Positions 11,686 through 26,819 of a stretch of 64,000 nucleotides of DNA are shown here, in pieces (position 1 is the stretch's first letter; each line of letters starts with the position of its first letter). The stretch is from Candidatus Obscuribacter phosphatis (GTDB lineage: Bacteria > Cyanobacteriota > Vampirovibrionia > Obscuribacterales > Obscuribacteraceae). The notes under the pieces were generated by a model. That model saw only the letters and a program-made list of their open reading frames with translations, ran no database searches and had not been told where the DNA came from. A program made the position numbers and the translations under genes. The DNA is taken from the NCBI GenBank assembly GCA_001899315.1, contig MOYA01000001.1, forward strand, positions 478,859-542,858, read 5' to 3'.

Positions 11686-11832
11686 TGTCACCCGTCTCCG
11701 GTTTAGGTGAATTGGGTTGATTCTTACCAATATGACGTTGCTTCATCCTTCGGAGCGATAGGAATAAAGGACATTTGGGTCCAGAATCTTAAGCACAGTA
11801 TGAGATTCGACGGGTACATCGCAGTTAGGCAT

Positions 11833-12624
11833 ATGAGAACTTCTGAGAAGAGAAGAAGTCGACTAACGACTTCATTATTTTGTCTGCTTACCGCTTGTGT
11901 CTGGCTTCCAAAGGCGGAGGCGCTGGACAAAGTTAGTGCAGTCAATTTATATAACGATAAGTGTTCAGGCTGTCATACCGTCGGTGGTGGCGCTCTTGTA
12001 GGTCCTGATTTGAAGCCTTCTACCGCTTGGGGCGAGACCGACCTGACGGCTGCGGTCAAGCGTATGGAGAAGAATGTTGGAACCCTTTCAAACGATGAAG
12101 TTCAGTCCCTAGTAAAGCTCTTGAAAGAGCCGCAGCTGGAGAAAATACTTAAGGCTGAAAGCGAGAAGGCTATCGCAGCGCAAGAGAAGTCGGCAGTTTC
12201 AGACGAGCCGGCCTCTTCCGTCAGCGGTGCCTCATTATTTTACGGGCGACAACCGCTTCTTAATGGTGGAATGGCTTGCGCTGCTTGCCACTCTTATGCA
12301 GGGCAAGGCGGAAACCTGGCCCCAGATCTTACTGCAATTTCAGAGAAACTGAGTGAACCAGCTTTGGTATCGGCTTGCCAAAATACCAGCTTTAAATTGA
12401 TGAAGCCTGCTTATGCCGATCATCCTGTCACTAGGCAGGAAGCACTGCACTTAGCCAGGTTTCTCAGGGACGAAAGTGCCAAGTCCGCGACCGGTCAATC
12501 TTTCAATAGTTATAGAGCCATGCAGTACGGCGCTATTTTTGCAGTTCTCTTCTTTATGCTGATCGCCTTTGGATATAGAGGACGAAATCACGGCGTTAGA
12601 GAAAAGCTTTCGAGGAGGAAATGA
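11833..12624 (+). CDS. membrane-anchored diheme cytochrome c (NarC-like)
   Basis: Two c-type haem motifs, CSGCH (about residue 37) and CAACH (about 155), define two cytochrome c domains. A signal peptide precedes them and a C-terminal helix (about 233-250) with a basic tail anchors the protein, so it faces the periplasm. The ATG at 11833 is preferred to the longer frame from 11707 because it starts the signal peptide directly and has TTAGG 5 nt upstream. Its stop is one base before the narG start. A diheme cytochrome c heading a nar operon recalls NarC of Thermus thermophilus. Here it could carry electrons between the b6/Rieske module and NarI or another acceptor. Confidence 0.88.
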   Translation: MRTSEKRRSRLTTSLFCLLTACVWLPKAEALDKVSAVNLYNDKCSGCHTVGGGALVGPDLKPSTAWGETDLTAAVKRMEKNVGTLSNDEVQSLVKLLKEPQLEKILKAESEKAIAAQEKSAVSDEPASSVSGASLFYGRQPLLNGGMACAACHSYAGQGGNLAPDLTAISEKLSEPALVSACQNTSFKLMKPAYADHPVTRQEALHLARFLRDESAKSATGQSFNSYRAMQYGAIFAVLFFMLIAFGYRGRNHGVREKLSRRK

Positions 12625-12625
12625 A

Positions 12626-15600
12626 ATGACTTGGATACGTGACACTTTCGCTCCTGAGAAACGCACATGGGAAGACCTTTATAGGAATCGCTGGCAGTAC
12701 GACAAGATCATTAGATCCACTCATGGTGTCAATTGTACTGGTTCCTGCAGTTGGAACGTCTATGTCAAAAATGGCATCGTTACCTGGGAATTGCAGGCTT
12801 TAGATTATCCAACGATTAGCAAAGAGATCCCGCCGCATGAGCCGCGCGGCTGTCAGCGCGGCATTTCCTGCTCTTGGTATCTTTATAGTCCAATCCGAGT
12901 CAAGTATCCATATATCAGAGGTGTCCTGCTTGACCTTTGGCGTGAGGCTCAAGAATTACATCCTGGCGATCCAATTGCTGCCTGGTCCTCAATAGTTTCT
13001 GATGATGAGAAAAGAAAACGTTTCCAGAAGGCGCGTGGAAAGGGTGGGTTGCGCCGCACCGATTGGTCTGTTGTGAATGAGTTGATGGCTGCAGCTAATT
13101 TATTCACAGTACAGAAATATGGGCCGGACCGGTTGGTGGGATTTTCCCCGATTCCTGCCATGTCTATGGTCAGTTATGCATCAGGTGCTCGTTTCTTACA
13201 ACTTATGGGTGGTGTCTGTCTTTCATTCTATGACTGGTATTGCGACTTGCCACCTGCTTCTCCCGAGATTTGGGGTGAACAAACGGATGTGGCCGAATCT
13301 GCTGATTGGTTCCACTCTCGCTATGTGGCAGTTGTTGGCTCCAATGTCCTGATGACTAGAACTCCGGATGCTCACTTTCTGGTAGAAGCAAGGCATCGGG
13401 GCTCCAAAGTTGTCGTTTTCTCGCCTGATTTCTCTCAGTCATCGAAGATAGCGGATGAATGGGTTCCAATCAATCAAGGGCAGGATGCTGCTTTTTGGCT
13501 GGCTGTCGGTCACGTTATCTTGAAGGAGTTTTACGTTGACAGGAATGTCCCTTATTTCGCTGACTATCTTAAGAAGTATGCTGATGCACCCTTCTTAGTC
13601 AAACTGGAGAAAGGTTCGAACGAAACCTACCGCCCTGGCAAATTACTTAGGGCTTCTGATCTGGGGGAATATCAGCGCTTAGAAAATTCTGAATGGAAGA
13701 CTCTTGTATTCGACCTCAAGACCAAAAGACCGGTTGTTCCTGGAGGAACAATCGGACACCGCTGGCAGAAAGAGAAAGGTGCTTGGAATCTAAGGTTGAA
13801 GGATTCTGTCACCGGCGATGAAATTGATCCTGCTTTGTTTTTCAGTAAAGAGAAAGGAGTTGATAACGATGCATCTGTGACCGTCACGATTGATGATTAT
13901 TCTGAGTCTTTTGATCAGCAGATTCTTCGCAAAGTTCCGATTCGTTATATAGACTCTGCTTCTGGTGAAAGACTTATCTGCACAACAGTTTTCGAGCTTC
14001 TGCTCGCTCAGTATGGTGTCGATAGGGGCTTTGGTGGAAACATACCTTCAGGATATGAAGACGAGTCTTCTGTATTTACTCCGGCTTGGCAGGAACGGTT
14101 TACAGGCGTTAAATCCAGCGTTGTAGTTAATTTCGCCAGAGAATGGGCAAAAACCGCAGAGAAGAGCAAGGGAAAGTGCTCGGTAATTATAGGCGCAGGA
14201 GCCAATCATTGGTATCACAATAATCTAATCTACCGGGCAGTAATTATGCCCTTGATTATGTGCGGCTGTGTTGGCGTAAACGGCGGTGGTCTCAATCACT
14301 ATGTTGGGCAGGAGAAGTTGGCCCCCCAAGCTTCTTGGGCTCCTATTGCCTTCGGTGGCGATTGGGGCGGTCCTCCTCGCTTGCAGAATGCTCCTTCTTT
14401 TCACTACGTTCATTCGGATCAATGGCGTTATGACCGACCGTTCAGTGAAATCTGTTCGGTTAATGACCGTGAGCATACAATGGCTGCTGGTCATACTATA
14501 GATAAACAAGCGCTTGCTATTAGAAATGGCTGGCTGCCTTGTTATCCTCAATTCAATGAACCCAATAGTCGAGTAATTGCTGAGGCGATTTCACAAGGGG
14601 CTAAAAGTGAGTCTGAGATTATTGCTCACGCTGTAAGCCGACTTAAGCGTCGAGACCTGCGTTTCTCTATGGAAGATCCCAATAACCCTGACTCTTATCC
14701 GCGGGTTTGGTATATCTGGCGCGGCAACGCCATTATGTCTTCTGCAAAGGGGCATGAATATTTCCTCAAGCATTATCTTGGTACTCATCATAACCAAATT
14801 GCTGAAGAGACTGCCGGGGATACAGTCAAGGAGGTAATTTGGCACGATAAGGTTGAGACCGGCAAAATGGATCTTATTGTCGATCTCAATTTTCGGATGG
14901 ATACATCCGCTCTATATAGCGACATCGTCTTGCCTGCTGCCACCCACTACGAAAAATTTGATATCGCAACTACTGACATGCACTCATTTATACATCCGCT
15001 GCAACCTGCAGTACCTCCGTGCTGGGAATCAATGTCTGATTGGGACATATTTAAGGGCATTGCTCAGAGCACGCAGAAGCTAGCTGTTAAGTACGATCTA
15101 AAGCCCATAGAAGATCTTGTTTCTTCTCCCCTTTTGCACGATACTCCTGCGGAAATAGCGCAGCCCACGGTCAAGGATTGGCTGAAGGGCGAATGTGATG
15201 CAATTCCAGGTCAGTCGATGCCCAACTTTAAGTTGGTTAGCCGTGACTATAAGACAGTCTATGAGCGCTTTATAAGGCTAGGTCCTAATTTCAGAAACAA
15301 TGGGCTCTCGGTGCATGGTACCCACTATGACGTGGATGACGTATACGATGAGTACGCCAAGCAGGGGCCAAGTCTCAAATTTGGCGAGACTTTGTTTCCT
15401 TCTTTGGAATCTGACCGCGATGTCTGTAATGCCATTCTTCATTTTGCCGCTGAGACAAATGGCGAGATGGCTTTTAGAGCTTTTCAGGCTGAGTCGCTAA
15501 AGACAGGAATTGATCATACTCATTTGGCTAGTGCCAGCCGCTCCGTGCGGATGAATATAGATGATTTGAAGGCTCAACCTAGGCGTGTTCTGACCACACC

Positions 15601-16270
15601 GTACTGGACCGGCATTACGAACGACGAGCGGACCTACTCGGCTTATTGCCAGAATATTGAGGAAGAGATTCCTTGGCGCACGCTCACAGGCAGACAGCAC
15701 ATGTATCTCGACCATGAAACTTACTTGGCTTATGGAGAGTCATTGCCGACCTATAAGCCGAGACCTGATGTACATGTGACAAGGGACCTAGAGAAGACAC
15801 CGAGAGACGGAGGTTCTTTGGTTTTGAACTATCTGACTCCGCACGGTAAGTGGCATATACATTCGACCTTCGGCGATACACTTCGCATGAAGACTCTATC
15901 GCGTGGAATTGAGCCGGTATGGTTGAATGAGAAGGATGCCGACATGATCGGCGTCGAAGATAACGACTGGGTTGAAGTCTTGAACGACCATGGCGTGGTC
16001 GTGACACGCGCCTGTGTCAGCGCGCGTATTCCCAGAGGACTGGCATATATCTATCACTCGCCGGAGCGAACCGCCACGACTCCCAAGTCGAAGGCGCGCA
16101 AGAATCGTCGAGCTGGCGGTCACAACAGCTTGACCAGAACAAGATTAAAGCCGCTTTTTATGGTTGGAGGCTATGCTCAGTTCACTTACGCATTCAATTA
16201 TTGGGGTCCTCAGGGCGTCAATCGCGACACTTATGTAGTCGTCAAGAAAGTAGAAGATCCCGAATTTTAA
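12626..16270 (+). CDS. narG: respiratory nitrate reductase alpha subunit
   Basis: NarG reduces nitrate to nitrite at a molybdenum bis-MGD centre. The FS0 cluster motif HGVNCTGSC (His33, Cys37, Cys41, with a later Cys in EPRGCQRG), the Mo-ligand region CDLPPASPEIWGEQTD and the NarG-specific GPDRLVGFSPIPAMSMVSYASG are all present. The length is 1214 residues, normal for NarG. The ATG at 12626 has GAGGAGG upstream. No twin-arginine signal is visible at the N-terminus, so the catalytic site is predicted to face the cytoplasm, as in Escherichia coli. That requires nitrate import, consistent with two NarK-type transporters nearby. Confidence 0.98.
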   Translation: MTWIRDTFAPEKRTWEDLYRNRWQYDKIIRSTHGVNCTGSCSWNVYVKNGIVTWELQALDYPTISKEIPPHEPRGCQRGISCSWYLYSPIRVKYPYIRGVLLDLWREAQELHPGDPIAAWSSIVSDDEKRKRFQKARGKGGLRRTDWSVVNELMAAANLFTVQKYGPDRLVGFSPIPAMSMVSYASGARFLQLMGGVCLSFYDWYCDLPPASPEIWGEQTDVAESADWFHSRYVAVVGSNVLMTRTPDAHFLVEARHRGSKVVVFSPDFSQSSKIADEWVPINQGQDAAFWLAVGHVILKEFYVDRNVPYFADYLKKYADAPFLVKLEKGSNETYRPGKLLRASDLGEYQRLENSEWKTLVFDLKTKRPVVPGGTIGHRWQKEKGAWNLRLKDSVTGDEIDPALFFSKEKGVDNDASVTVTIDDYSESFDQQILRKVPIRYIDSASGERLICTTVFELLLAQYGVDRGFGGNIPSGYEDESSVFTPAWQERFTGVKSSVVVNFAREWAKTAEKSKGKCSVIIGAGANHWYHNNLIYRAVIMPLIMCGCVGVNGGGLNHYVGQEKLAPQASWAPIAFGGDWGGPPRLQNAPSFHYVHSDQWRYDRPFSEICSVNDREHTMAAGHTIDKQALAIRNGWLPCYPQFNEPNSRVIAEAISQGAKSESEIIAHAVSRLKRRDLRFSMEDPNNPDSYPRVWYIWRGNAIMSSAKGHEYFLKHYLGTHHNQIAEETAGDTVKEVIWHDKVETGKMDLIVDLNFRMDTSALYSDIVLPAATHYEKFDIATTDMHSFIHPLQPAVPPCWESMSDWDIFKGIAQSTQKLAVKYDLKPIEDLVSSPLLHDTPAEIAQPTVKDWLKGECDAIPGQSMPNFKLVSRDYKTVYERFIRLGPNFRNNGLSVHGTHYDVDDVYDEYAKQGPSLKFGETLFPSLESDRDVCNAILHFAAETNGEMAFRAFQAESLKTGIDHTHLASASRSVRMNIDDLKAQPRRVLTTPYWTGITNDERTYSAYCQNIEEEIPWRTLTGRQHMYLDHETYLAYGESLPTYKPRPDVHVTRDLEKTPRDGGSLVLNYLTPHGKWHIHSTFGDTLRMKTLSRGIEPVWLNEKDADMIGVEDNDWVEVLNDHGVVVTRACVSARIPRGLAYIYHSPERTATTPKSKARKNRRAGGHNSLTRTRLKPLFMVGGYAQFTYAFNYWGPQGVNRDTYVVVKKVEDPEF

Positions 16271-16292: not shown

Positions 16293-17786
16293 ATGGATGT
16301 CAGAGCGCAAGTTTCAATGGTGTTTCATCTCGATAAATGTATCGGCTGTCACACTTGTTCCATCGCCTGTAAGAATGTCTGGACTGATCGAGCCGGCGCT
16401 GAGTATATGTGGTGGAATAACGTTGAGACCAAGCCGGGCACGGGATTTCCAACTCTTTGGGAGAATCAGGACCACTATAAAGGAGGCTGGAAGTGGAATG
16501 GAAACGGCAAGCTTAGCCTGAGGAGTCAGAATAAGTGGGATGCCTTCATCAAGCTTTTCTACAATCCCAATCAACCTGGATTGGAAGACTACTACGAACC
16601 ATGGACTTATAAATATCAAGACTTATTTGATGCAGCGGAAGGCGACGATCAGCCTACTGCAGTTCCTATATCTCAAATAACAGGAGAGGAAATCGAGATA
16701 AACGCCGGTCCAAATTGGGATGATGATCTATCCGGTTCTCCTCTCTATGCGGAAAACGATTTGAACTTGGATGCTCTATCGGAGGAAGAGCGGGAACAAC
16801 TGTTCGAGATTGAGCGGCTTTCTATGATGTATTTGCCGCGTATTTGCAATCACTGTGCAAACCCAAGCTGTGTGGCTTCCTGCCCTAGCGGTGCTCTTTA
16901 TAAAAGAGGCGAGGATGGAATCGTCTTGATAGATCAGGAAATCTGCCGAGGTTGGCGAGCCTGCGTGGCAGCATGTCCTTATAAGAAAATCTATTACAAC
17001 TGGAAAACCGGTAAGTCCGAAAAGTGCATTCTTTGTTATCCCAAGTTGGAGACTGGACAGATTCCAAACTGTTTTCACTCCTGCGTTGGGCGAATTAGGT
17101 ATCTTGGCGTGCTTCTCTATGACGCCGATAGAATTGATAAAGCAATGTTGGTGCCGGATCACGCTCTTGTGGAGTCGCAGCGCAGTGTATTGCTTGATCC
17201 CTTTGATTCTGAGGTGATTGCCGCAGCTAGAGCTAACGGTATCAGCAGTGAGTTTTTGTTTGCGGCACAGCACTCGCCTGTCTATAAGTACGTGAAGGAA
17301 TGGAAAGTGGCTCTGCCTCTGCATATCGAGTATCGAACCATGCCCATGCTCTTTTATGTGCCGCCGCTCTTGCCGGTCATGGGTAAGCTTGAGAACGGCA
17401 TATACGAGCACAAAAGCGATAGTTTCTTTGCCACCCTCGAAAAGTCTAGACTGCCAGTGAAGTTTCTAGCCAGGCTATTCTCCGCGGGTAACGAGGAGAT
17501 TGTAGAAGCTGCTATTCGCAAACTTATGGCCGTCCGTTATTACAGACGCTCCGTCGATCTGGACGATATCGACGTTGTCGAGATTTCTAAGGTTATGAGA
17601 GAGGGACGCACCACTCCGGAAGAGGCAGAGGCGATTTATGCTTTGACTGCTATTCCAACAATAGATCAGCGATTCGTTCTTCCTCCTATACAGAGAGAGG
17701 AGGCAATTTCAGCAACATGCAGTCCGGAGGCATGTAAAGGTTGTACAGGTCTTGGTACCTCCGTCTCTATCGAAAGGGGACCTTGA
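16293..17786 (+). CDS. narH: respiratory nitrate reductase beta subunit
   Basis: NarH carries four Fe-S clusters between NarI and NarG. The cysteine motifs are CIGCHTCSIAC (about 16-26), CNHCANPSCVASCP (about 189), CRGWRACVAACP (about 220, with the family Trp that makes one cluster a [3Fe-4S]) and CILCYPKLETGQIPNC (about 246). The 497-residue length is normal. The ATG at 16293 follows GAGGAAG. A cysteine-rich C-terminal tail (CSPEACKGCTGLG) resembles a further, unassigned metal-binding motif. It lies 22 nt after narG and 3 nt before narJ. Confidence 0.97.
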   Translation: MDVRAQVSMVFHLDKCIGCHTCSIACKNVWTDRAGAEYMWWNNVETKPGTGFPTLWENQDHYKGGWKWNGNGKLSLRSQNKWDAFIKLFYNPNQPGLEDYYEPWTYKYQDLFDAAEGDDQPTAVPISQITGEEIEINAGPNWDDDLSGSPLYAENDLNLDALSEEEREQLFEIERLSMMYLPRICNHCANPSCVASCPSGALYKRGEDGIVLIDQEICRGWRACVAACPYKKIYYNWKTGKSEKCILCYPKLETGQIPNCFHSCVGRIRYLGVLLYDADRIDKAMLVPDHALVESQRSVLLDPFDSEVIAAARANGISSEFLFAAQHSPVYKYVKEWKVALPLHIEYRTMPMLFYVPPLLPVMGKLENGIYEHKSDSFFATLEKSRLPVKFLARLFSAGNEEIVEAAIRKLMAVRYYRRSVDLDDIDVVEISKVMREGRTTPEEAEAIYALTAIPTIDQRFVLPPIQREEAISATCSPEACKGCTGLGTSVSIERGP

Positions 17787-17789
17787 GAA

Positions 17790-18356
17790 ATGAGTTCGCC
17801 GAAAGTCAACGAAGAGATAGTGCCTTTACTTGAGGACTTAGCTGTGATTGGTCGATTGTTTCAATATCCTCGTCGGAGTTTTTCTCAACTGCAGGAACTT
17901 AATTCACTCTTTTTGTCTTCTCGGGCCAGGCGCCTTTTAAGAGAAAGATCTGAGTCGATTGTCGAAGCTTTTTCTTGCCTAAGTCTTGCTCAGCTTGAGG
18001 AAAGCTATACGCGCGCTTTCGACCTAGCACCGCTGGCTGCGCCCTATTTGAGCGCATACATATATGGTGATGAGAATTTTGATCGCGGTTCTTTCCTTGC
18101 CGCGCTGACTGAGCGGTTCCGAGTCGCTGGGTATGAATTCGGTCAAGAATTGCCCGATCATCTTGCAGTGGTGCTAATAGGATTGAGATTCCTAGAGCTA
18201 GATGAAGTGCGTGATCTCATTGATTTTCTTATTCTCCCGGCTGTGCGGGAAATCAATCAGCGCCTCGACAGCAGCGAGGGTCCTTATAAACACCTAACAG
18301 CCTACTTGTTGCAACTTATAGACTTCGACCAGTTTGAGCAGTTTCCCGGGGTATGA
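17790..18356 (+). CDS. narJ: nitrate reductase assembly chaperone
   Basis: A 188-residue TorD-type helical chaperone of the NarJ branch. It has the early GRLFQYPRRSF motif, a tail of helices ending in YLLQLIDFDQFEQFPGV, and the canonical position between narH and narI. NarJ family members bind NarG for molybdenum cofactor insertion and membrane attachment and are not part of the final enzyme. It is shorter than the enterobacterial protein (about 235). The start ATG at 17790 is 3 nt after the narH stop. AGGGG upstream lies inside the narH end. Confidence 0.88.
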   Translation: MSSPKVNEEIVPLLEDLAVIGRLFQYPRRSFSQLQELNSLFLSSRARRLLRERSESIVEAFSCLSLAQLEESYTRAFDLAPLAAPYLSAYIYGDENFDRGSFLAALTERFRVAGYEFGQELPDHLAVVLIGLRFLELDEVRDLIDFLILPAVREINQRLDSSEGPYKHLTAYLLQLIDFDQFEQFPGV

Positions 18357-18359
18357 GAG

Positions 18360-19670
18360 ATGGCGTCTTTTGATAACTTCATTTTTGTTGCATTGCCGTA
18401 TTTGGCAGTAGTTGTCTGTTTGGTGGGCTCGATTTATAGAGTGAAATTTATGCCCACTACTTATTCCTCGCTTTCCTCGCAGTTTCTTGAAAGTCGTGGT
18501 TTGATGTGGGGCAGTCTTCCCTGGCACATCGGCATAATTGCCATAGTACTCGGACATTTTCTTGCCTTTCTATTTCCTGGCTTTTGGCAGCTTTTGGTGG
18601 CCCATAAGCCCCTTCTCCTAGTGATCGAAACCCTTGGTCTTGGCTTTTCTCTGCTCTGTCTCGCCGGAATTCTTGTTCTATTTGTTAGACGCACAACCAG
18701 CAGCCGAGTGCAGAGTGTCACTTCCAATATGGACCTGGTAGTTCTTGTTTTGCTTTTGGTTCAGGTAGGTCTGGGAATATATACAGCCGTTTCGCATTCG
18801 TGGGGCAGTGCTTGGTCGTTAGGTACCACATGCCCTTATCTCCTTAGTCTGTGTGCTTTCTCACCCCAGATTGATCTGGTTCAAGATCTACCGCATGCCG
18901 TCAAAGCTCATATGGTACTGGCTTGGATTCTAATCGGCTTGATCCCTTTCTCTCGGCTGATTCATATGTTTGCTGTACCAATTGAGTACTTAACTCGACC
19001 TTGGCAGAATGTAGTTTGGTTAAGCGGTCGTCGCACAGAAAGTAATCCCCAAGTCTTTCAGGAAAATGCAGCTAGACGCCATTTTATCCTAGGTGGATTG
19101 GCTTCCCTGTTTGGTATTTCTCTGCTTTCGGTAGGTGTTTTTGACAAAATTTTTCGCTTCTTTTTTGGTCCAAGACTTTCAGCCAAAGAAGAGTCTGATC
19201 TAATGTCCGTAAGGCTTGCTCGACTTGAGTCGACCACCTCACAGCGAAAACTGGAGCTTGAAAGGCAAGAGAATGAGTACATACTCATTGGTAGTCTAGC
19301 TGAATTGTCGATCGACAAAGGCAAGTATTTCATCGACTATCAGATGATGCCTGCTCTTGCTTTTCTAGGCAAGAACGACCTGCCACTCCTTATATCGGCT
19401 AAGTGTACACATCTAGGTTGTACTGTTTCTTCGGAGGCAAAAGATGGAAAGGTTCTCTGTCCTTGCCATATTAGTTACTTTGATATTGAGACCGGAGCTC
19501 CGAACGCCGATTCTCCTGCCAAAGCGCCGCTTCCTCATCTGCCTTGGGTGGTAATGGATACTCGAGGCAGAGAACTTGCCTCCTTCGATGGAAAGAGTTT
19601 GAGAGGCTCTATCGACAGTAATAAGCGGCTCAGTGCCAGGGTCTATATTCCTAAGGAGAATAAAGTATGA
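18360..19670 (+). CDS. narI: NarI-Rieske fusion: nitrate reductase cytochrome b gamma subunit with C-terminal Rieske [2Fe-2S] domain
   Basis: Residues 1-225 are a complete five-helix NarI. His56 and His66, and His184 and His202, have the same spacings (10 and 18) as the four haem b ligands of E. coli NarI. After a short basic linker a sixth hydrophobic helix (about 241-268) and a charged segment lead to a bc-type Rieske domain (about 305-436). Cluster ligands are Cys349, His351, Cys367 and His370, and the stabilising disulfide pair is Cys354/Cys369. Free NarI is about 225 residues and this protein is 436. The frame is continuous and the junction shows no stop. It starts 3 nt after narJ and overlaps the cytochrome b gene by 4 nt. 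The fusion should tether a quinol-oxidising Rieske head to nitrate reductase. Confidence 0.95.
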   Translation: MASFDNFIFVALPYLAVVVCLVGSIYRVKFMPTTYSSLSSQFLESRGLMWGSLPWHIGIIAIVLGHFLAFLFPGFWQLLVAHKPLLLVIETLGLGFSLLCLAGILVLFVRRTTSSRVQSVTSNMDLVVLVLLLVQVGLGIYTAVSHSWGSAWSLGTTCPYLLSLCAFSPQIDLVQDLPHAVKAHMVLAWILIGLIPFSRLIHMFAVPIEYLTRPWQNVVWLSGRRTESNPQVFQENAARRHFILGGLASLFGISLLSVGVFDKIFRFFFGPRLSAKEESDLMSVRLARLESTTSQRKLELERQENEYILIGSLAELSIDKGKYFIDYQMMPALAFLGKNDLPLLISAKCTHLGCTVSSEAKDGKVLCPCHISYFDIETGAPNADSPAKAPLPHLPWVVMDTRGRELASFDGKSLRGSIDSNKRLSARVYIPKENKV

Positions 19671-20782
19671 CCGTTTCAGATCGCTCCAAGCAGTCGCGTA
19701 AGATTGATTTCTTCGGCTTCTTAGTCGAAAGGTTTCCCTTAGATAAGATGAACATCAAGCATATGCTTGAGCACAAGGAAGTGCCTGTGCACAAGATGAG
19801 CTGGGGCTATTATACCGGCGGTTTGACTATGTTCTTTTTCATGATTCAGGTGGTTACTGGACTATTTTTACTCTTCTACTATCAGCCGACAGTATCAGAT
19901 GCTAATTTGTCAGTCGAGTACATAACCAAATATGTCAGTGCTGGTGCTTTGATTCGCAATATGCATGCCTGGTCTGCTTCAGGCATGATTCTCTCTGCTG
20001 TGGTTCATCTGATAACTGCATTTGCCATGAAGAGTTTTGAGAAGCCTCGAGAATTGACGTGGATCCTGGGAGTGGTTCTGCTTGTGATAACCTTCACATT
20101 CGGTTTTACTGGTTACCTTCTGCCTTGGAATCAGATTGCCGTAAATGCCACCAAGGTCGGTCTGCAGAGTGTGGAAGATGTCGGACAGTACTTACCTGGT
20201 TTATTGCACGATGTACCTCGCATTTTGCGCGAAACATTTCAAGGTGAGGCGAGTGTCGGGCAGTCTACATTAGGTCGCTTTTATGCGCTGCATGTAGTGC
20301 TTTTGCCTCTTGCTCTTGTTCTGTTGCTGGCAGGGCACTTATTGCAGGTACAGTTGCACGGTATGAGCGAAGGTGTAGATATGAAAGCTGCTAAAACTGA
20401 GAGATTCTTTCCTGTTTTTCTATTTAAGGATCTGACACTCTGGGGAGTCTTTTTCTTCATCTTGTTCACGCTTTCAATCTGTATTCCATTTGAGTCTTTT
20501 TTGCCCTATCCTCTTTTGGCGCCATATGATGCCTTAGGTGCGACCCCAGCTGGAATCAAGCCCGAATGGTACTTCTTCTTTGTCTACTATCCTCTTGAGC
20601 TATTGCCGTTTTGGGTAATCATCTTGCTTTCCGGAATGGTCGGTGCCATTTTGGTCCTTACTCCCTGGATATTCGCCGGGACAAGCCGAAAAGTTCTCGG
20701 CTTCATAGCCTCTTTAGTTAGTGTATATCTGATTGTTATGACTGTCTTCGGTGAGCAGATTTATCATTTGCTCAAACATTAA
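19667..20782 (+). CDS. cytochrome b6-like cytochrome b (fused b6 + subunit IV form)
   Basis: A 371-residue cytochrome b with about eight helices. Haem ligand pairs are His100/His114 (spacing 14) and His209/His224 (spacing 15). The longer second spacing is the b6-type signature. Other b6-like stretches are GGLTMFFFMIQVVTG, KPRELTW and GYLLPWNQ. The quinol-site motif PEWY (299-302) belongs to the subunit-IV-like half, fused here in one chain. The residue equivalent to the haem-ci cysteine of b6 appears to be Tyr49, so haem ci is probably absent. It overlaps the narI-Rieske gene by 4 nt (ATGA) and with it supplies a quinol:cytochrome c core. Confidence 0.95.
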   Translation: MTVSDRSKQSRKIDFFGFLVERFPLDKMNIKHMLEHKEVPVHKMSWGYYTGGLTMFFFMIQVVTGLFLLFYYQPTVSDANLSVEYITKYVSAGALIRNMHAWSASGMILSAVVHLITAFAMKSFEKPRELTWILGVVLLVITFTFGFTGYLLPWNQIAVNATKVGLQSVEDVGQYLPGLLHDVPRILRETFQGEASVGQSTLGRFYALHVVLLPLALVLLLAGHLLQVQLHGMSEGVDMKAAKTERFFPVFLFKDLTLWGVFFFILFTLSICIPFESFLPYPLLAPYDALGATPAGIKPEWYFFFVYYPLELLPFWVIILLSGMVGAILVLTPWIFAGTSRKVLGFIASLVSVYLIVMTVFGEQIYHLLKH

Positions 20783-20797
20783 GAAGTGATTGAAAAT

Positions 20798-21439
20798 ATG
20801 AGAACTATAAATAATCGTGCAATTCAAATAGATCTTCTGAAATCTAGACTCTCGAAGCATTTTTGGTTTGGGTCAATTTCGTCGATTTTTCTACTTTCTT
20901 GCTTTGTTTCGAAAGCCGACTCTTACCCTCAGTTCCAGGAATTCTCAGAGAAGAACTCTGGAAGAAGTGTCAATTGTGCCATGTGTCATACTTCAGGAGA
21001 CGGTCCGACCGGCGAGGGACCTGGTCAAATAGGTTCCTTGAAAGCTGAAGAGATTGCTAGGTTAAATAGTGCGCGGGCTGCGTTGGAACCGGGGTCTCAA
21101 GTAGAAAGCCCGATTCTGAATGATTTCGGCAATCTCATTATCAAATCTCTGGGTAAGAGAAAAGTTCTTGCTCTGCGAGACGAACCGGCTCAGTTGTCCA
21201 TAGCTCTTGGTAATCGATCCGACCTCGACAAGGATGGTATCTGCGATGGGCAGGAGTACTTGGATGGCACAGACCCTTTGAACGCCGAGCATGGTGATCC
21301 GCTGAAGCTTTTTAGAATCAATCTCTCGAAGTATAAGTTGCATATCTGTTTGGCACTGCTGGCGGTGGCTTCAATTAGCTTTGGCATTGTGCGCCTGCTT
21401 AAGGCTATTGAAATTTTGGCTGCAGTGAGAAGGAGTTAG
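20798..21439 (+). CDS. monoheme cytochrome c with Ca-binding-type loop and C-terminal anchor
   Basis: After an N-terminal signal/anchor helix (about 26-44) comes one haem c motif, CAMCH (about residue 62). A segment SDLDKDGICDGQEYLDGTDP follows (about 162-181), resembling a thrombospondin-type-3 or EF-hand-like calcium loop. A C-terminal helix (about 184-205) anchors the protein. The ATG at 20798 is chosen; a GTG at 20786 in the same frame has no ribosome site. A candidate Met axial ligand is not obvious. It directly follows cytochrome b, where a bc complex would have cytochrome c1 or f. It is unlike either, so it may be a functional replacement. The next gene is narK, 4 nt on. Confidence 0.85.
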   Translation: MRTINNRAIQIDLLKSRLSKHFWFGSISSIFLLSCFVSKADSYPQFQEFSEKNSGRSVNCAMCHTSGDGPTGEGPGQIGSLKAEEIARLNSARAALEPGSQVESPILNDFGNLIIKSLGKRKVLALRDEPAQLSIALGNRSDLDKDGICDGQEYLDGTDPLNAEHGDPLKLFRINLSKYKLHICLALLAVASISFGIVRLLKAIEILAAVRRS

Positions 21440-21443
21440 ATAA

Positions 21444-23099
21444 ATGACTGTTGGTGGTGCCTCTATGGAGTCGCAGATAGTGTTAGTAGACAAGCCTGAT
21501 CTTACCGGCTTCAATCCGGAAGACGAGGTGCAATGGTCTGCATGCGGTAAGAAACTGGCTGATCGAAATCTATTGATATCCATTCCCTGCCTTCTCTGCG
21601 GTTTCGCCGTTTGGATGTATTGGGGGGTGATAACTGTCCAAATGCTCAACTTGGACTTCCCTTATACGAAGGCCCAATTATTTACGCTTACTTCAATTGC
21701 TGGACTATCCGGCGCTACACTTAGAATTCCCAGCACATTTTTTATAAGAATAGCTGGTGGGCGAAACACGGTCTTCTTTACGACCATGCTTCTTATACTG
21801 CCGGCGGTTTTGACAGGCTATTTTCTTGCCGACAAGGCAACTCCCCTGTGGGTATTCCAAGTTTTGGCCTTGTTATGCGGCTTGGGTGGTGGAAACTTTG
21901 CTTCTTCAATGTCCAATATAAGCTTCTTCTATCCGAAGAAAGTGCAGGGACTCTCTTTGGGCCTCAACGCTGGCTTGGGGAACTTCGGTGTAACAGCCAT
22001 GCAGATTCTGGTGCCGTTATCGATGACCTTCGGGTTACCCGGACAGGCCAGTATGGTTTTGAAAAGCGCTAGTGGAACAATGTTCGGCAAGATAGCAGCA
22101 GGAAGTACTGCTTATATACAAAATGCCGGTTATGTTTGGTTGGTTCTGCTCATTCCATTTACCCTCCTTGCCTTGCTTAAGATGAATAATATTAAGGATG
22201 AGAACGTTTCGCCGGAGCCGGGTTCAATCTTGATAGCCTGTTCTAAGCTTGCCGGCATGCTATTAATCGGTCTATTAACCGCGTCAGTTGGGGTTTGGCT
22301 TATGCTTCCTGCTGCATCGGGTGGTCAGGGCTCCGAGTTTTCAATGTGGTTGGTAATACCAGGTGTCATCGCGGCAACAGTACTTCTGCTCAAGGCGATT
22401 CCAGGCAAAATTCGCTCAAGCCTCGACAGGCAATACAAGATCTTCGGCAATGTGCACACTTGGGTTATGACAGTTATTTACACTATGACATTTGGGTCTT
22501 TTATCGGTTATGCGGCCGCTTTGCCACTATCAATTCAGGTGATCTTCGGCTTTAGTCATGTGGCTCAATCCGATGGCTCGTTCTTGCATAATGCCGTTAA
22601 TCCTAATGCTCCAAGTGCATTAACTTATGCCTGGACAGGGGCATTCATTGGGGCGCTAATGCGACCCTTTGGCGGCTGGCTTGCAGACCGTATTGGAGGC
22701 GCCCTTGTAACTCAGTTGGTATCCGTAGTGATGATTGGCGGTGCCTTTGGGGTCTCACACTTTTTGAAGCTGGCATACAAGAGCAGCACGCCTGAAGAAT
22801 TCTTTTGGCCGACTTTTGCTGTCTTTCTAGTCTTGTTTGCTGCCTCTGGTATCGGTAATGGTTCTACATTCCGTACCATTGCTAATGTCTTTAACAAGGA
22901 ACAAACCGGCCCTGTCTTGGGTTGGACATCGGCACTGGCTGCCTATGGAGCATTCATCATCCCTATGGTGATCGGTTCGCAGGTTCAGAACGGCACTCCA
23001 GAGCTTGCCTTTTACGGTTTTGCCGTATTCTACGTTCTTTGTTTAGTCTTGAACTGGACATTTTATTTGCGACCTGGTGGTTCTCTGCGAAATCCCTAG
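21444..23099 (+). CDS. narK: nitrate/nitrite transporter, NarK family
   Basis: A major-facilitator protein of 551 residues with about 12-14 helices. It carries NarK-type hallmarks: the nitrate signature region GGGNFASSMSNISFFYPKKVQGLSLGLNAGLGNFG (about 146-180), arginines in helix 2 and helix 8 regions (LRIPSTFF, ALMRPFGGWLADRIGG), and GNGSTFRTIANVF as the second signature. It would bring nitrate in and/or export nitrite to serve the cytoplasmic NarG site. It is the last gene of the nar operon, starting 4 nt after the cytochrome c gene. A long loop between helices 6 and 7 is larger than usual. Confidence 0.95.
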   Translation: MTVGGASMESQIVLVDKPDLTGFNPEDEVQWSACGKKLADRNLLISIPCLLCGFAVWMYWGVITVQMLNLDFPYTKAQLFTLTSIAGLSGATLRIPSTFFIRIAGGRNTVFFTTMLLILPAVLTGYFLADKATPLWVFQVLALLCGLGGGNFASSMSNISFFYPKKVQGLSLGLNAGLGNFGVTAMQILVPLSMTFGLPGQASMVLKSASGTMFGKIAAGSTAYIQNAGYVWLVLLIPFTLLALLKMNNIKDENVSPEPGSILIACSKLAGMLLIGLLTASVGVWLMLPAASGGQGSEFSMWLVIPGVIAATVLLLKAIPGKIRSSLDRQYKIFGNVHTWVMTVIYTMTFGSFIGYAAALPLSIQVIFGFSHVAQSDGSFLHNAVNPNAPSALTYAWTGAFIGALMRPFGGWLADRIGGALVTQLVSVVMIGGAFGVSHFLKLAYKSSTPEEFFWPTFAVFLVLFAASGIGNGSTFRTIANVFNKEQTGPVLGWTSALAAYGAFIIPMVIGSQVQNGTPELAFYGFAVFYVLCLVLNWTFYLRPGGSLRNP

Positions 23100-23223
23100 A
23101 GCCTAGAGTTTGGAGCTGATGGCAAAGATCAGTCTTCTGGATTCAAAATATCGTCCAAAAGAAGATAAAAAGATCTAGATGTCTCTGTAATCTAGAGCAG
23201 TCAAATTGAGAGGCAGGTGTCCT

Positions 23224-24924
23224 ATGTCTTTAGAAAAAGCTACGGTAAGATTTTTTTGTTCTTTCTTGGTCGTTTGGATTGCTGCTGCCAGTTCGGTAAG
23301 TGCGCAAGTGCTTAGTTCTGATCCGTCTAGAACTGAAACGGAAACAGATAGTTTGCAAGACTTTCCTTCTCCATCTCCCTTGCAGATTCAGTCTCCTGCG
23401 TCACTTGACCAGAATGAGCCGCTTCTGCGCTCGCAGACAGTCTCTGAACCTGTACTTGATAGTGTTTTCTTAGCGCAGAATGCGTCTCCTTCATTACGCG
23501 GACTAGGTAGCGAGTCGAATAATTCTTTCCTGTTAAATGCCTCAATGAGCGATCTAGAAGAAGTGACAGTGCTTGCCGCTAAGAAAGAGCTGGAACTAAT
23601 TGGTCTTAATGCCAAATATAGAGTCGAGTCGACCAAGGTCGATAGGTATAAGACTTGGCGTAGCTTTGCCTTTAACATGGGGCAGTATGTCTTTAGTAAT
23701 ATTGGCATAGATCACGTCGCTTATGCTCGCTGGCGCACCTGGCAGCGCCCCAGTACGGCAGGAAAGTCTTTCCTCACCTTTGGTCCTTCCTTTCTTATCG
23801 TCGGCCATTCCATAGGTACAGCTGGTGCTCTCACCGAGCTTACGATTGACGCCTGGCGCGCTCGCCAGTTAAGAAAGATGAAGATGGATGAGAAGTCTTA
23901 TCGACAGAAAGTGAATGAGCTAAAGTCGGAAATTGACCGACTTCTCTTGAGAAGGCAGACCTTAATTGAGAGTAAGCAGTTTAGCGAGGAAGCTGCAAAG
24001 TTTGCCTCTAGAGAAGGTGCTCTTCTGAAAAATATGAGAGATGCCGCTCTCATCGAGTACAGGAATTTTTGCGTGAGAGGAAAAGCCTTTCGGACAGGCA
24101 GAGATGTTGCCAATCTTATGAGCTTGGGGGGCGCCACTACCGGTGGTTACCTTGGCGCTCTCTGTGGTCTGCTGGCTATCACCAATAGAAAACCAAATAT
24201 CGCTGGGCCGGCCGGAATAGGATTTATTGTTTCTGGTGGATTCATCGTGCTAGGTCCGGTGGTTTCCAAGGTTAGTTCCATTGCGGCTTCACGCCGGTTG
24301 ACCAGATCTCTCGATAAAGAGCTGGGGCAGTTAGACCTTGAGTCGGTTAAGAATCTAGAGAGTGGTTCAATTGAACTTAGCCGGCTTGCTGATAATGTTG
24401 ATTTGTCCTCTGCAGAAGGCATGAAAATTCGTCTCAAGCTGTATCAAGCCGGGGCGGCCGCTTTCCACAAGGACTCAGCAATGGCTCTGGCCGAGAAGCT
24501 GAACGCTTCCCGGGAGTTTAAAGAAAGGGTTTTGGCAAACACCTTGATAGGTGGTACGAAAATTGGTTGGGGTGTGCAGTTGGCACGGGCTGGTTTCGGT
24601 TTTCATCAGGCCCCGGCGCCGCGAACGCAGGTAATCAGTGTCAACGTTGATGGAAAGAACCTTCCAATCTACAGCTACAGACCGAAGACACCTGGCTCGG
24701 TTTTTTCGCATCGGGTAGCCATGGGTGCCACCACCTTTATCCCAGGCACCGCCATAGGCATACTCGATACTATGCAAAACCGCGCCAGGGGACAAATTAA
24801 AACAAATAAGCTGAAGAAGGAGGGCAAACTGCCAGCGATGGTGATTGCACAGAGATTGTCTGCTCTAGAGAATCTTGATAGACAGTTGGAGGAAGAGTTG
24901 CAGCGATTGCAATCTAATAGGTAA
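23224..24924 (+). CDS. exported or membrane protein with coiled coil, unknown function
   Basis: The ATG at 23224 begins a 566-residue protein; an upstream GTG-type frame start at 23206 is less likely. A signal peptide (about 8-28, ending SVSAQ) is followed by a Ser/Pro-rich region. Then come a helical part with heptad-like charged coiled coils (about 105-125 and 205-275) and several glycine-rich hydrophobic stretches (about 175-200, 290-345, 490-520). A final coiled coil ends the chain. I do not recognise a family. It follows the nar operon by about 120 bp on the same strand and stops one base before the end of the convergent CMD gene, with no room for a terminator. Confidence 0.6.
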   Translation: MSLEKATVRFFCSFLVVWIAAASSVSAQVLSSDPSRTETETDSLQDFPSPSPLQIQSPASLDQNEPLLRSQTVSEPVLDSVFLAQNASPSLRGLGSESNNSFLLNASMSDLEEVTVLAAKKELELIGLNAKYRVESTKVDRYKTWRSFAFNMGQYVFSNIGIDHVAYARWRTWQRPSTAGKSFLTFGPSFLIVGHSIGTAGALTELTIDAWRARQLRKMKMDEKSYRQKVNELKSEIDRLLLRRQTLIESKQFSEEAAKFASREGALLKNMRDAALIEYRNFCVRGKAFRTGRDVANLMSLGGATTGGYLGALCGLLAITNRKPNIAGPAGIGFIVSGGFIVLGPVVSKVSSIAASRRLTRSLDKELGQLDLESVKNLESGSIELSRLADNVDLSSAEGMKIRLKLYQAGAAAFHKDSAMALAEKLNASREFKERVLANTLIGGTKIGWGVQLARAGFGFHQAPAPRTQVISVNVDGKNLPIYSYRPKTPGSVFSHRVAMGATTFIPGTAIGILDTMQNRARGQIKTNKLKKEGKLPAMVIAQRLSALENLDRQLEEELQRLQSNR

Positions 24925-25248
24925 TTAGTCCTCTTTATGTGAGTTGAGAATGTCATCCATCCAGGAGAGTATAGCCATCATGTTAGGAAACCCTAGAGTT
25001 GTTACAGAGAGCAGCGCCACATGTCTTATCTCTTCAGGGTCTAAACCGGCTTCTAAAGCTCTGCGTGTATGCGAATGTAGAGCTCCTTCCATCTTGGCAC
25101 CGCTGGCGATGGCAAGTTTAACTAGCGCAATTTCGCGAGGGCTCAACGGTCCACCTGCTACGGCAGCCTTGCCAAGTTCTTCGTATGCCTTGAATACCTG
25201 CGGATGGGATTTTTGAAATGCTGTGAATCTTCCAGGTAGTTTTGCCAT
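24925..25248 (-). CDS. carboxymuconolactone decarboxylase (AhpD-like)-fold protein without the cysteine pair
   Basis: A 107-residue all-helical CMD-family protein (LSPREIALVKLAIASG, then SHTRRALEAGLDPEEIRHVALLSVTTLGFP). Peroxidase-type members have C-x-x-C before the conserved His, whereas here the equivalent is EGALHSH, so AhpD-like disulfide chemistry is not possible. The His is kept. The ATG at 25248 follows GGAGG. It is divergent from the second NarK-type transporter with overlapping start regions, which suggests co-regulation with nitrate or nitrite transport. Its reaction is unknown. Confidence 0.8.
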   Translation of the reverse strand: MAKLPGRFTAFQKSHPQVFKAYEELGKAAVAGGPLSPREIALVKLAIASGAKMEGALHSHTRRALEAGLDPEEIRHVALLSVTTLGFPNMMAILSWMDDILNSHKED

Positions 25249-25310
25249 ATTCGCCTCCAGTCAGTCGCCTCTTGAATGTAGAGATTTTAACAAATTTCAA
25301 TGGAGATTTT

Positions 25311-26819
25311 ATGCCTGAAAAGTATAAGTCGATATCGGTATTGACCGTAAGCACAGCTTCTTTTGTTGTCTGTTTTGCTTGTTGGGTATTGTACGGAGTG
25401 CTGGTCGCTTTTCTTGTCGACAATGGAGTTTACTCATTCGACGCCGGTCAGGTTGGTTGGCTTTTAGGTGTACCAATCTTGACCGGTTCTTTATTGAGGT
25501 TGCCTGCCGGAGTCTTAACAGATCGCTATGGCGGTCGGGTCGTCTTCGTGACAATTATGTTGATTTCTGCGGGATTTATGTACTTAGTCAGTTACTGCAC
25601 TGACTTTTGGCAATTTTTTCTCGCCGGTCTAGGTTTTGGTATTTCTGGAGCTTCCTTTGCCGTGGGTATTGCCTATACTTCTCTTTGGTTTCCCAGAGAG
25701 AAGCAAGGTACTGCTCTGGGTATCTTTGGTGCAGGAAATGCCGGTGCATCTCTTACGAGCATGGGGGCTCCACATCTTCTCAATTTTTGCACCGACAATC
25801 TGCATTTCCTGGAGGGCTGGCGTCAAGTTCCTCGGATATATGCCGCAATTCTGGTAGTGGTCTCCCTCTTATTCTGGTTCTGTTCATTCCCTCGTAAGGT
25901 CGAGAAGAAAGGCATCTCTATTCTGCAGCAACTAGCCCCTTTGAGAGAGGTTAGGGTTTGGCGATTTGGACTTTATTACTTCTTTGTCTTTGGAGGGTTT
26001 GTTGCACTTTCTCAGTGGCTGATTTCCTACTATCTCAACGTATATGCCATGTCTCTGGCAATGGCAGGCTTGATGGCCAGTATTTTTAGCTTACCTTCAG
26101 GAGTGATACGAGCAATCGGTGGTTGGTTGTCGGATAAGTTTGGGGCGCGTTCTGTAATGTATTCGGTTCTGGTTTCATGTTTGATTGCTTCCTTAGCTCT
26201 CTGTGTGCCTCGTATGGATGTCGAAACACCCGGACAAGGAGTTATGTGCACCAAGAAGGGGATAGTGGAAAGCGTTACTGCAAGTGAGATTGTTGTCGCT
26301 GGGAAATGCTATAAGCTTCGAGCGAAGCAGCAGGATGATCTACTTACGATATTTGAGGATAGAAAAGAGTTGTTGGTTTGGCCGACAACTGTATTTTGGC
26401 AAGAGCCTCTTGTTAAAGTGGGCGACAGTGTTTTGAAGAAGCAGATCTTAGCCCAAGGTGTGACTCATATTTTCTTTCAAGCCAATGTTTGGATATTTAC
26501 TTTCTTTGTGCTTGTGTTAGGGGTGATGACCGGCATAGGAAAAGCTGCGGTGTATCGCCATATACCGGACTACTTCCCCCATGATGTTGGCGTTGTTGGT
26601 GGAATAGTGGGGGTTATCGGAGGTCTTGGAGGATTTGTCGGGCCAATTGTTTTCGGCTATCTTTTGCAGGCAACGGGGATTTGGACCACTTGTTGGATGC
26701 TTTTCGCCATGCTTAGTGCCGTTTGTCTCTGGTGGATGCATGTCACAATAACTAGAATGCTCAGGCAAGAGGCTCCGCATCTCACTGAGAACATTGAGCC
26801 GTTTCCGCGTCCGACCTAG
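25311..26819 (+). CDS. NarK-family nitrate/nitrite transporter with inserted soluble domain
   Basis: A 502-residue MFS protein with early helices and nitrate-porter motifs (LPAGVLTDRYGGR, GASFAVGIAYTSLWFPREKQGTALGIFGAGNAG; later GIGKAAVYRHIPDYFP). The ATG at 25311 has GGAG 6 nt upstream and replaces a longer frame from 25242. Between helices 8 and 9 (about residues 308-386) lies an extra soluble segment with short strands, containing GIVESVTASEIVVAG and VKVGDSVLKKQILAQG. This recalls half-motifs of barrel-sandwich (biotinyl/lipoyl-like) hybrid domains. Such an insert is not part of standard NarK. It may be a docking or regulatory domain. Confidence 0.88.
   Translation: MPEKYKSISVLTVSTASFVVCFACWVLYGVLVAFLVDNGVYSFDAGQVGWLLGVPILTGSLLRLPAGVLTDRYGGRVVFVTIMLISAGFMYLVSYCTDFWQFFLAGLGFGISGASFAVGIAYTSLWFPREKQGTALGIFGAGNAGASLTSMGAPHLLNFCTDNLHFLEGWRQVPRIYAAILVVVSLLFWFCSFPRKVEKKGISILQQLAPLREVRVWRFGLYYFFVFGGFVALSQWLISYYLNVYAMSLAMAGLMASIFSLPSGVIRAIGGWLSDKFGARSVMYSVLVSCLIASLALCVPRMDVETPGQGVMCTKKGIVESVTASEIVVAGKCYKLRAKQQDDLLTIFEDRKELLVWPTTVFWQEPLVKVGDSVLKKQILAQGVTHIFFQANVWIFTFFVLVLGVMTGIGKAAVYRHIPDYFPHDVGVVGGIVGVIGGLGGFVGPIVFGYLLQATGIWTTCWMLFAMLSAVCLWWMHVTITRMLRQEAPHLTENIEPFPRPT

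Follow-up and report, generated by a model that had tools for sequence, protein, structure and literature searches.

We found that Candidatus Obscuribacter phosphatis encodes NarI and a Rieske domain as one polypeptide. Within the window, by which we mean the whole 64,000-nucleotide stretch of DNA that was analyzed, this NarI-Rieske fusion protein of 436 aa is encoded on the plus strand by a single ATG-started open reading frame without an internal stop (18360..19670). We confirmed that the fusion is real, and we observed that it is conserved, which genes surround it in the operon, that the cofactor ligands are intact, and that NarI has lost the basic residue of its quinol site. The shared fusion and the seven-gene set that accompanies it suggest a nitrate reductase that obtains its electrons via a built-in, proton-translocating Q-cycle module and not straight from the quinol pool; this mechanism is inferred.

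One chain from NarI to the Rieske head

Pfam placed NarI (PF02665) at residues 5-219 of the 436-aa chain with 199 bits against a cut-off of 22.9, and Rieske (PF00355) at residues 344-394 with 26 bits against a cut-off of 20.3. The chain also passed the NCBIfam narI equivalog TIGR00351 (119.5 vs 105.6 bits). On the evidence of Pfam, alignment, AlphaFold, and Foldseek, the NarI part comprises residues 1-228 (18360..19043, plus strand, like all window features given below), with five transmembrane (TM) helices, His56, His66, His184, and His202, and neither Lys nor Arg at the position of E. coli Lys86. In the AlphaFold model it is followed by TM helix 6, which anchors the Rieske part (19053..19166; model helix 232-269), and by a helical stalk of 30 residues that the alignment also supports (residues 275-304; 19182..19271). 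The Rieske [2Fe-2S] head (19272..19667), recognized by Pfam, alignment, and Foldseek, contains Cys349, His351, Cys367, and His370 together with the disulfide Cys354/Cys369. The open reading frame, Pfam, and the model agree with the preliminary description, which had read one continuous frame from NarI through a TM helix into a Rieske domain. The residues it had named as haem ligands and as cluster and disulfide residues were also correct. The four NarI haem b ligands were identical in 57 of 57 fused proteins, as were Cys349, His351, Cys354, Cys367, Cys369, and His370, and the Rieske motifs CTHLGC and CPCH were present, with ligands and disulfide cysteines complete in all 57.

The AlphaFold model, built on the 57-sequence alignment, had a mean pLDDT of 85 and a pTM of 0.50. 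It ordered the chain as the five helices of NarI, a linker of low confidence (216-230), helix 232-269, the long helix 275-304, and a Rieske fold. At this pTM, the model does not settle where the Rieske head lies with respect to NarI. In Foldseek, the NarI part matched chains of E. coli NarI with TM-scores of 0.84-0.86 on the target, and the remainder matched Rieske domains. When the 57 fusions were compared, the linker from W220 to R239 measured 17-21 residues in every one, the 262-307 interval was always 44 residues long, and the stalk had no indels. A near-fixed linker and a fixed stalk length fit the expectation if geometry matters, and a linker this short implies that the NarI and Rieske modules must be neighbors.

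These lengths bear on whether the chain might be a polyprotein, made as one translation unit for equal subunit amounts and then cut in the cytoplasmic linker, leaving NarGHI and the bc complex as separate enzymes. The cytochrome b-c1 polyprotein of Bradyrhizobium is processed, and the linker is the least confident part of our AlphaFold model. However, across about 12 phyla the 57 sequences keep this linker at 17-21 residues, an almost constant length, and its cytoplasmic location keeps it away from signal peptidase. We consider cleavage improbable.

The C-terminus of NarI lies in the cytoplasm and Rieske anchors begin in the cytoplasm, so that the junction raises no topology conflict. In the alignment of the 57 fusions, the start of TM helix 6 carries a twin-arginine motif at residues 239-245 (19074..19094; consensus RRxFLKG). 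More broadly written, the consensus is RRxF[LIV][KR][GA], directly ahead of the last TM helix, with Arg240 conserved in 57/57, Arg239 in 54/57, and Phe242 in 55/57. Sec is the probable route of insertion for the NarI helices and Tat, by inference, for the Rieske helix. Dual Sec/Tat insertion is known for the actinobacterial Rieske protein QcrA, Sco3746, a polyferredoxin, and YkuE-like proteins (PMC5449189). Like the fusion, these polytopic proteins have an externally located folded domain, and a twin-arginine motif immediately precedes their final TM helix. NarI is unmentioned in that study, whose bioinformatic filter admitted only proteins with an even number of helices ahead of the motif; the fusion, with five, would seemingly be excluded.

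The operon and its distribution

The genes upstream of the fusion begin with a NarC-like, dihaem c-type cytochrome (11707..12624; Pfam Cytochrome_CBB3), which has two CxxCH motifs, a C-terminal membrane anchor, and a true start inside the open reading frame. NarG, the molybdenum subunit, follows at 12626..16270; it lacks a Tat signal (cytoplasmic type) and matched the narG equivalog TIGR01580 with 1507 bits against a cut-off of 1084. NarH, the iron-sulfur subunit (16293..17786), matched TIGR01660 (narH) with 632 bits against 524, and a divergent NarJ chaperone (17790..18356) was over the cut-off of PF02613 and below that of TIGR00684. Directly downstream of the fusion, Pfam and motifs identified a cytochrome b that unites b6 and subunit IV in one chain (19667..20782), with the PEWY motif at position 299 and His100/114/209/224. 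The start codon (ATG) of this gene overlaps the stop codon of the NarI-Rieske gene, which suggests translational coupling, although this is an inference. Next comes a membrane-anchored monohaem c protein with CxxCH and a DxDxDG loop (20786..21439), a probable c1 equivalent. Two NarK-type transporters, both with TIGR00886 matches below cut-off and both recurring beside fused operons, complete the region: a nitrate/nitrite transporter at 21444..23099 and a second, of uncertain start, at 25242..26819. The 572-aa open reading frame between the two narK genes (23206-24924) had no NCBIfam match; an open reading frame of similar size follows narK1 in the nearest relative (L041:7594-9396).

Open reading frames near all loci were classed by HMMs built on the first 14 loci. 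Every uncut fused operon had the order dihaem c, narG, narH, narJ, narI-Rieske, cytochrome b, and monohaem c, often with one or two narK genes after these seven. The dihaem c gene was missing only from operons truncated at their start by a contig end, and the monohaem c gene only from those truncated at their far end. PEWY and both His spacings (four haem His) were found in the cytochrome b of 56/56 fused loci. No Tat-like motif was found ahead of the FS0 motif in the 48 fused-operon NarG proteins tested, and nitrate reduction is thus expected to be cytoplasmic.

Upon analysis of the two c cytochromes, we found the dihaem protein to be 30% identical over 189 aa to the c cytochrome that heads the Thermus nar operon, where it holds the same position. 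The monohaem protein, the candidate for a c1 or f subunit, comes directly after cytochrome b. It gave no family over cut-off and, despite a model with pLDDT 95, no PDB fold match, so that its identification as cytochrome c1 by fold search is unsupported. Its 41 relatives share CxxCH, an invariant Asn112, and the DxDxDG calcium-type loop; no Met or His that could serve as the second (distal) haem ligand is conserved among them, which leaves its redox role uncertain.

The source genome (∼5.5 Mb) is one of many carriers. A match over essentially the whole fusion protein was found in 11 of the 60 relatives searched (families f1 and f7 of the class), and two further fused genomes in a phylum scan bring to 13 the other genomes of the class in which the fused frame is open. 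Scanning GTDB genomes with a single protein query returned no match, and with an alignment query it recovered at least 54 fused loci, one of them cut at a contig end. After removal of genomes seen twice, the set comprised 57 distinct full-length fusions, 42-68% identical to the window protein; the carrier count is a lower bound. Among the matches listed, carriers belong to about 12 bacterial phyla and include Cyanobacteria/Melainabacteria, Verrucomicrobia (including Akkermansiaceae), Planctomycetota, Blastocatellia, Sumerlaeota, Hydrogenedentota, FCPU426, Myxococcales, Omnitrophota, Bacteroidota, Spirochaetes, and one unplaced Proteobacteria bacterium. Every named carrier is a metagenome-assembled genome. 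Since many independent assemblies carry the same open frame, an assembly join or frameshift as the source of the fusion is excluded. Neither outcome that would have refuted the preliminary description, a break of this kind near 19050-19200 or absence of the fusion in relatives, was borne out. No fusion was found on plasmids: of the 89 plasmid records that matched, 0 reached 80% coverage of the query.

It is conceivable that such an operon works in reverse, as a nitrite oxidoreductase whose electrons pass via NarI to the c cytochromes while the bc complex runs backward to reduce quinone. NarC-NarGHI-like clusters in Nitrobacter do act as nitrite oxidoreductases (PMC7694296). However, RuBisCO was not found in the source genome, and the carriers are spread over many phyla not known for nitrite oxidation. 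NarG and NarH also pass the nitrate reductase equivalog cut-offs, which may not separate nitrite oxidoreductases. We regard a reversed enzyme as very unlikely.

Operons without the fusion provide a comparison. The nearest unfused kin (most of L127-L151, standalone Rieske loci left out) and Thermus (L152) have operons of the dihaem c-narGHJI type without bc genes. Genome G059 has a different arrangement (L061:994-9846), in which a separate Rieske gene and a cytochrome b fused to a NarC-like dihaem c (637 aa) are followed by narG, narH, narJ, and an unfused narI. The C-terminal part of this cytochrome b fusion is homologous to the dihaem c of the window, and the unfused NarI keeps a basic residue at the Lys86 position. 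Two distinct joins therefore connect bc components with Nar-associated ones, and we take this as a sign that the two are functionally linked. At a Methylococcaceae locus (L135), two nar sets lie consecutively, the second with a short narI match. Standalone Rieske-cytochrome b-monohaem c sets of the same subfamily also occur without nar genes (L054:8177-10553, L055:9061-11427, L056:5671-8073, and L060:9871-12127); their Rieske proteins are 49-56% identical, and some sets lie beside small c cytochromes and a ∼487-aa protein without a Pfam or NCBIfam match.

Fused operons clustered strongly in both the cytochrome b and NarH trees. A quick cytochrome b tree placed eight standalone Rieske-cytochrome b-cytochrome c sets of Obscuribacterales inside the fused group, and a quick NarH tree did the same for the unfused L127 and L131. 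AU tests (p 0.56 and 0.57) gave no grounds to reject a single fused clade, and the held-together tree was slightly better. As a single fused clade is left standing, we make no claim of repeated fusion or later splitting. The simplest reading is a single fusion spread by descent and transfer, with the direction of transfer unresolved.

An ordinary gene fusion without functional meaning, with the bc module and Nar independent and merely co-regulated, would need no more than the loss of a stop codon, which can fuse adjacent genes, and the unfused sisters L127 and L131 manage without a bc module in the operon. Nevertheless, the fusion is conserved in 57 diverse sequences with its linker near-fixed and its stalk fixed, and among the examined operons with this downstream bc set, none had narI and Rieske split. 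We see hardly any room for this explanation.

The NarI quinol site and the inferred electron route

Lys86 of E. coli NarI is reportedly needed for quinol binding, a result attributed to Bertero et al. in 2005. By their titles, PDB entries for E. coli nitrate reductase include a NarI-K86A mutant and a Q-site inhibitor complex. Our NarI alignment comprised 57 rows with the fusion and 34 without it, E. coli being represented twice; the four haem His and the two Arg after helix 3 were invariant in all of them. The Lys86 column, on the other hand, was always hydrophobic in the fused proteins (L, V, I, F, M, or A) and basic in 0/57, whereas in the unfused proteins it was K or R in 26/34 and neither in 8/34. 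A basic residue at this position is thus typical of NarGHI-type NarI but not strictly defining. It is also absent from the Rhodococcus and Burkholderia NarI in the alignment and from the unfused sisters L127, L131, and L134 (NarI at L127:8995-9663, L131:8995-9663, and L134:6780-7472), whose operons have no bc genes; for two of these three, a Rieske-cytochrome b set lies elsewhere in the genome. The basic/non-basic state changes only twice on the NarH tree, which implies that the loss in the fused group was about one event and not many.

We consider it probable that the product of the operon is a supercomplex acting as a quinol:nitrate oxidoreductase, with NarGHI covalently tethered to a complete Rieske/cytochrome b/c complex by the NarI-Rieske chain. 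The physical complex, the route, the stoichiometry, and Tat insertion are all inferred. Quinol would be oxidized at the Qo site of cytochrome b. One electron would travel from the Rieske cluster to the anchored monohaem c and on to the dihaem NarC-like cytochrome; from there it would cross NarI via the outer (bD) and then the inner (bP) haem b and reach NarH and finally NarG, where nitrate would be reduced in the cytoplasm; the other electron would be recycled via cytochrome b in a Q-cycle. If so, NarI may no longer be a quinol oxidase and may serve as a transmembrane wire fed from outside. The predicted release is ∼4 H+ outside per nitrate instead of 2, and the inferred charge count per nitrate is 2 from the Q-cycle plus 2 from the NarI crossing, vs 2 for direct quinol oxidation by NarI.

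The preliminary description had taken the joining of the two domains to imply a quinol:cytochrome c module physically tied to nitrate reductase. This remains the best-supported reading, with the physical association and the electron route inferred and not shown. It is favored because, beyond the fusion itself, the next two genes are a complete cytochrome b and a haem c, because a dihaem c precedes narG in every uncut operon, and because the arrangement is conserved in about 12 phyla and the Lys86 equivalent is gone. Against a supercomplex, there are no biochemical data, the named carriers are all metagenome-assembled, Lys86 is not universal in unfused NarI and its loss in the fused group counts as about one event, and the sisters lack the basic residue without having bc genes in their operon. 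The low pTM and the missing distal ligand of the monohaem c also weigh against it. A more specific proposal is that of a widespread, undescribed bc/nitrate-reductase hybrid whose NarI does not oxidize quinol, is fed only by the tethered Q-cycle module, and conserves about double the charge per nitrate of an E. coli-type Nar. We lean toward it, if only just.

The source genome encodes a second Rieske-cytochrome b-cytochrome c set that is less similar, its cytochrome b being 38% identical. In the draft genomes of 8 of 18 carriers from other phyla, a single cytochrome b was found, which we infer from the loci to be the nar-linked copy. The source genome also contains a cbb3-like oxidase, accompanied by a partner with two CxxCH motifs, as well as a second member of the COX1 family, 761 aa long (G000:C1:837102-838340, G000:C4:168337-169671); the latter has about the length of a quinol-type NO reductase and is unnamed by NCBIfam.

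NarI might instead keep its own quinol oxidation while the bc module mainly directs electrons outward, via the c cytochromes, to oxidases or to other acceptors in the periplasm (nitrite, NO), in which case the fusion would provide proximity without a series connection. Such outward flow finds candidate acceptors in the cbb3-like oxidase and the COX1-family protein of qNor-like length, and it has been proposed for Thermus that, under repression of complex III, NarC donates electrons to the reductases of nitrite and NO (PMC7694296). However, the basic quinol-site residue is missing from 57/57 fused NarI, the neighbors in most loci are genes for nitrate reductase and nitrate transport, and the source genome has a separate, less similar bc complex. 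We judge outward flow unlikely and retain the tethered supercomplex as our working interpretation.

Relation to known nitrate reductases

In the textbook membrane nitrate reductase, electrons come directly from quinol and 2 charges are conserved per nitrate. E. coli NarGHI shares with the window NarG, NarH, the four NarI haem b ligands, and the NarI fold. It differs in that NarI itself oxidizes quinol with Lys86 and in having no Rieske protein; to our knowledge, E. coli has no bc complex.

Closer systems are Thermus NarC-NarGHI and Streptomyces Nar1/bcc-aa3. The Thermus operon (narCGHJIK) has the same order of dihaem c, NarG, NarH, NarJ, NarI, and transporter, with a homologous dihaem c, and Thermus NarC contacts NarI in two-hybrid assays and is needed for enzyme maturation (PMC7694296). 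Unlike the fused operons, it has no Rieske fusion or bc genes, and its NarI has Arg at the Lys86 position. Streptomyces coelicolor Nar1 depends on the bcc-aa3 supercomplex being active, and parts of the supercomplex copurify with it; the authors propose transfer from QcrC to haem bD, 4 H+, and ∼505 mV available from menaquinol to nitrate, and cite the bcc complex-dependent reductases of Campylobacter and Wolinella as further precedents (PMC7931247). Nar1 is thus likewise a NarGHI that depends on a bc-type complex, with a proposed electron entry at haem bD (PMC7931247), but in these Actinobacteria the link is non-covalent, the loci are separate, and there is no NarI-Rieske chain.

Haloarchaeal pNar, which the preliminary description had offered as a precedent, fits only in part. 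A Rieske protein (NarB) and a cytochrome b (NarC) are indeed encoded with NarGH there, and Q-cycle coupling has been proposed (PMC7754194). The parallel ends where NarGH faces outside, the Rieske gene is separate, and NarI has no homolog. The pNar hallmark of a Tat signal on NarG without a NarI is not met by the fused operons, which have NarI and, in 48 cases, NarG without a Tat-like motif.

We found no description of a NarI-Rieske chain in the open-licence literature; this absence is not proof, as subscription papers and domain-architecture databases were outside the search. As far as can be told, each part is of a known kind, and what is new is the covalent linkage, the range of its carriers, and the change at the quinol site.

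Streptomyces Nar1, with a link that is loose and difficult to prove, poses the question of whether a bc complex can work in series with NarGHI. In the fusion, both partners are one polypeptide, and a full bc set and a dihaem c lie in the same operon across about 12 phyla, which makes the question directly testable on one expressible operon. The energy yields assumed for nitrate respiration in groundwater and sediment bacteria, among them Verrucomicrobiota, Omnitrophota, Hydrogenedentota, and Obscuribacterales, may need revision.
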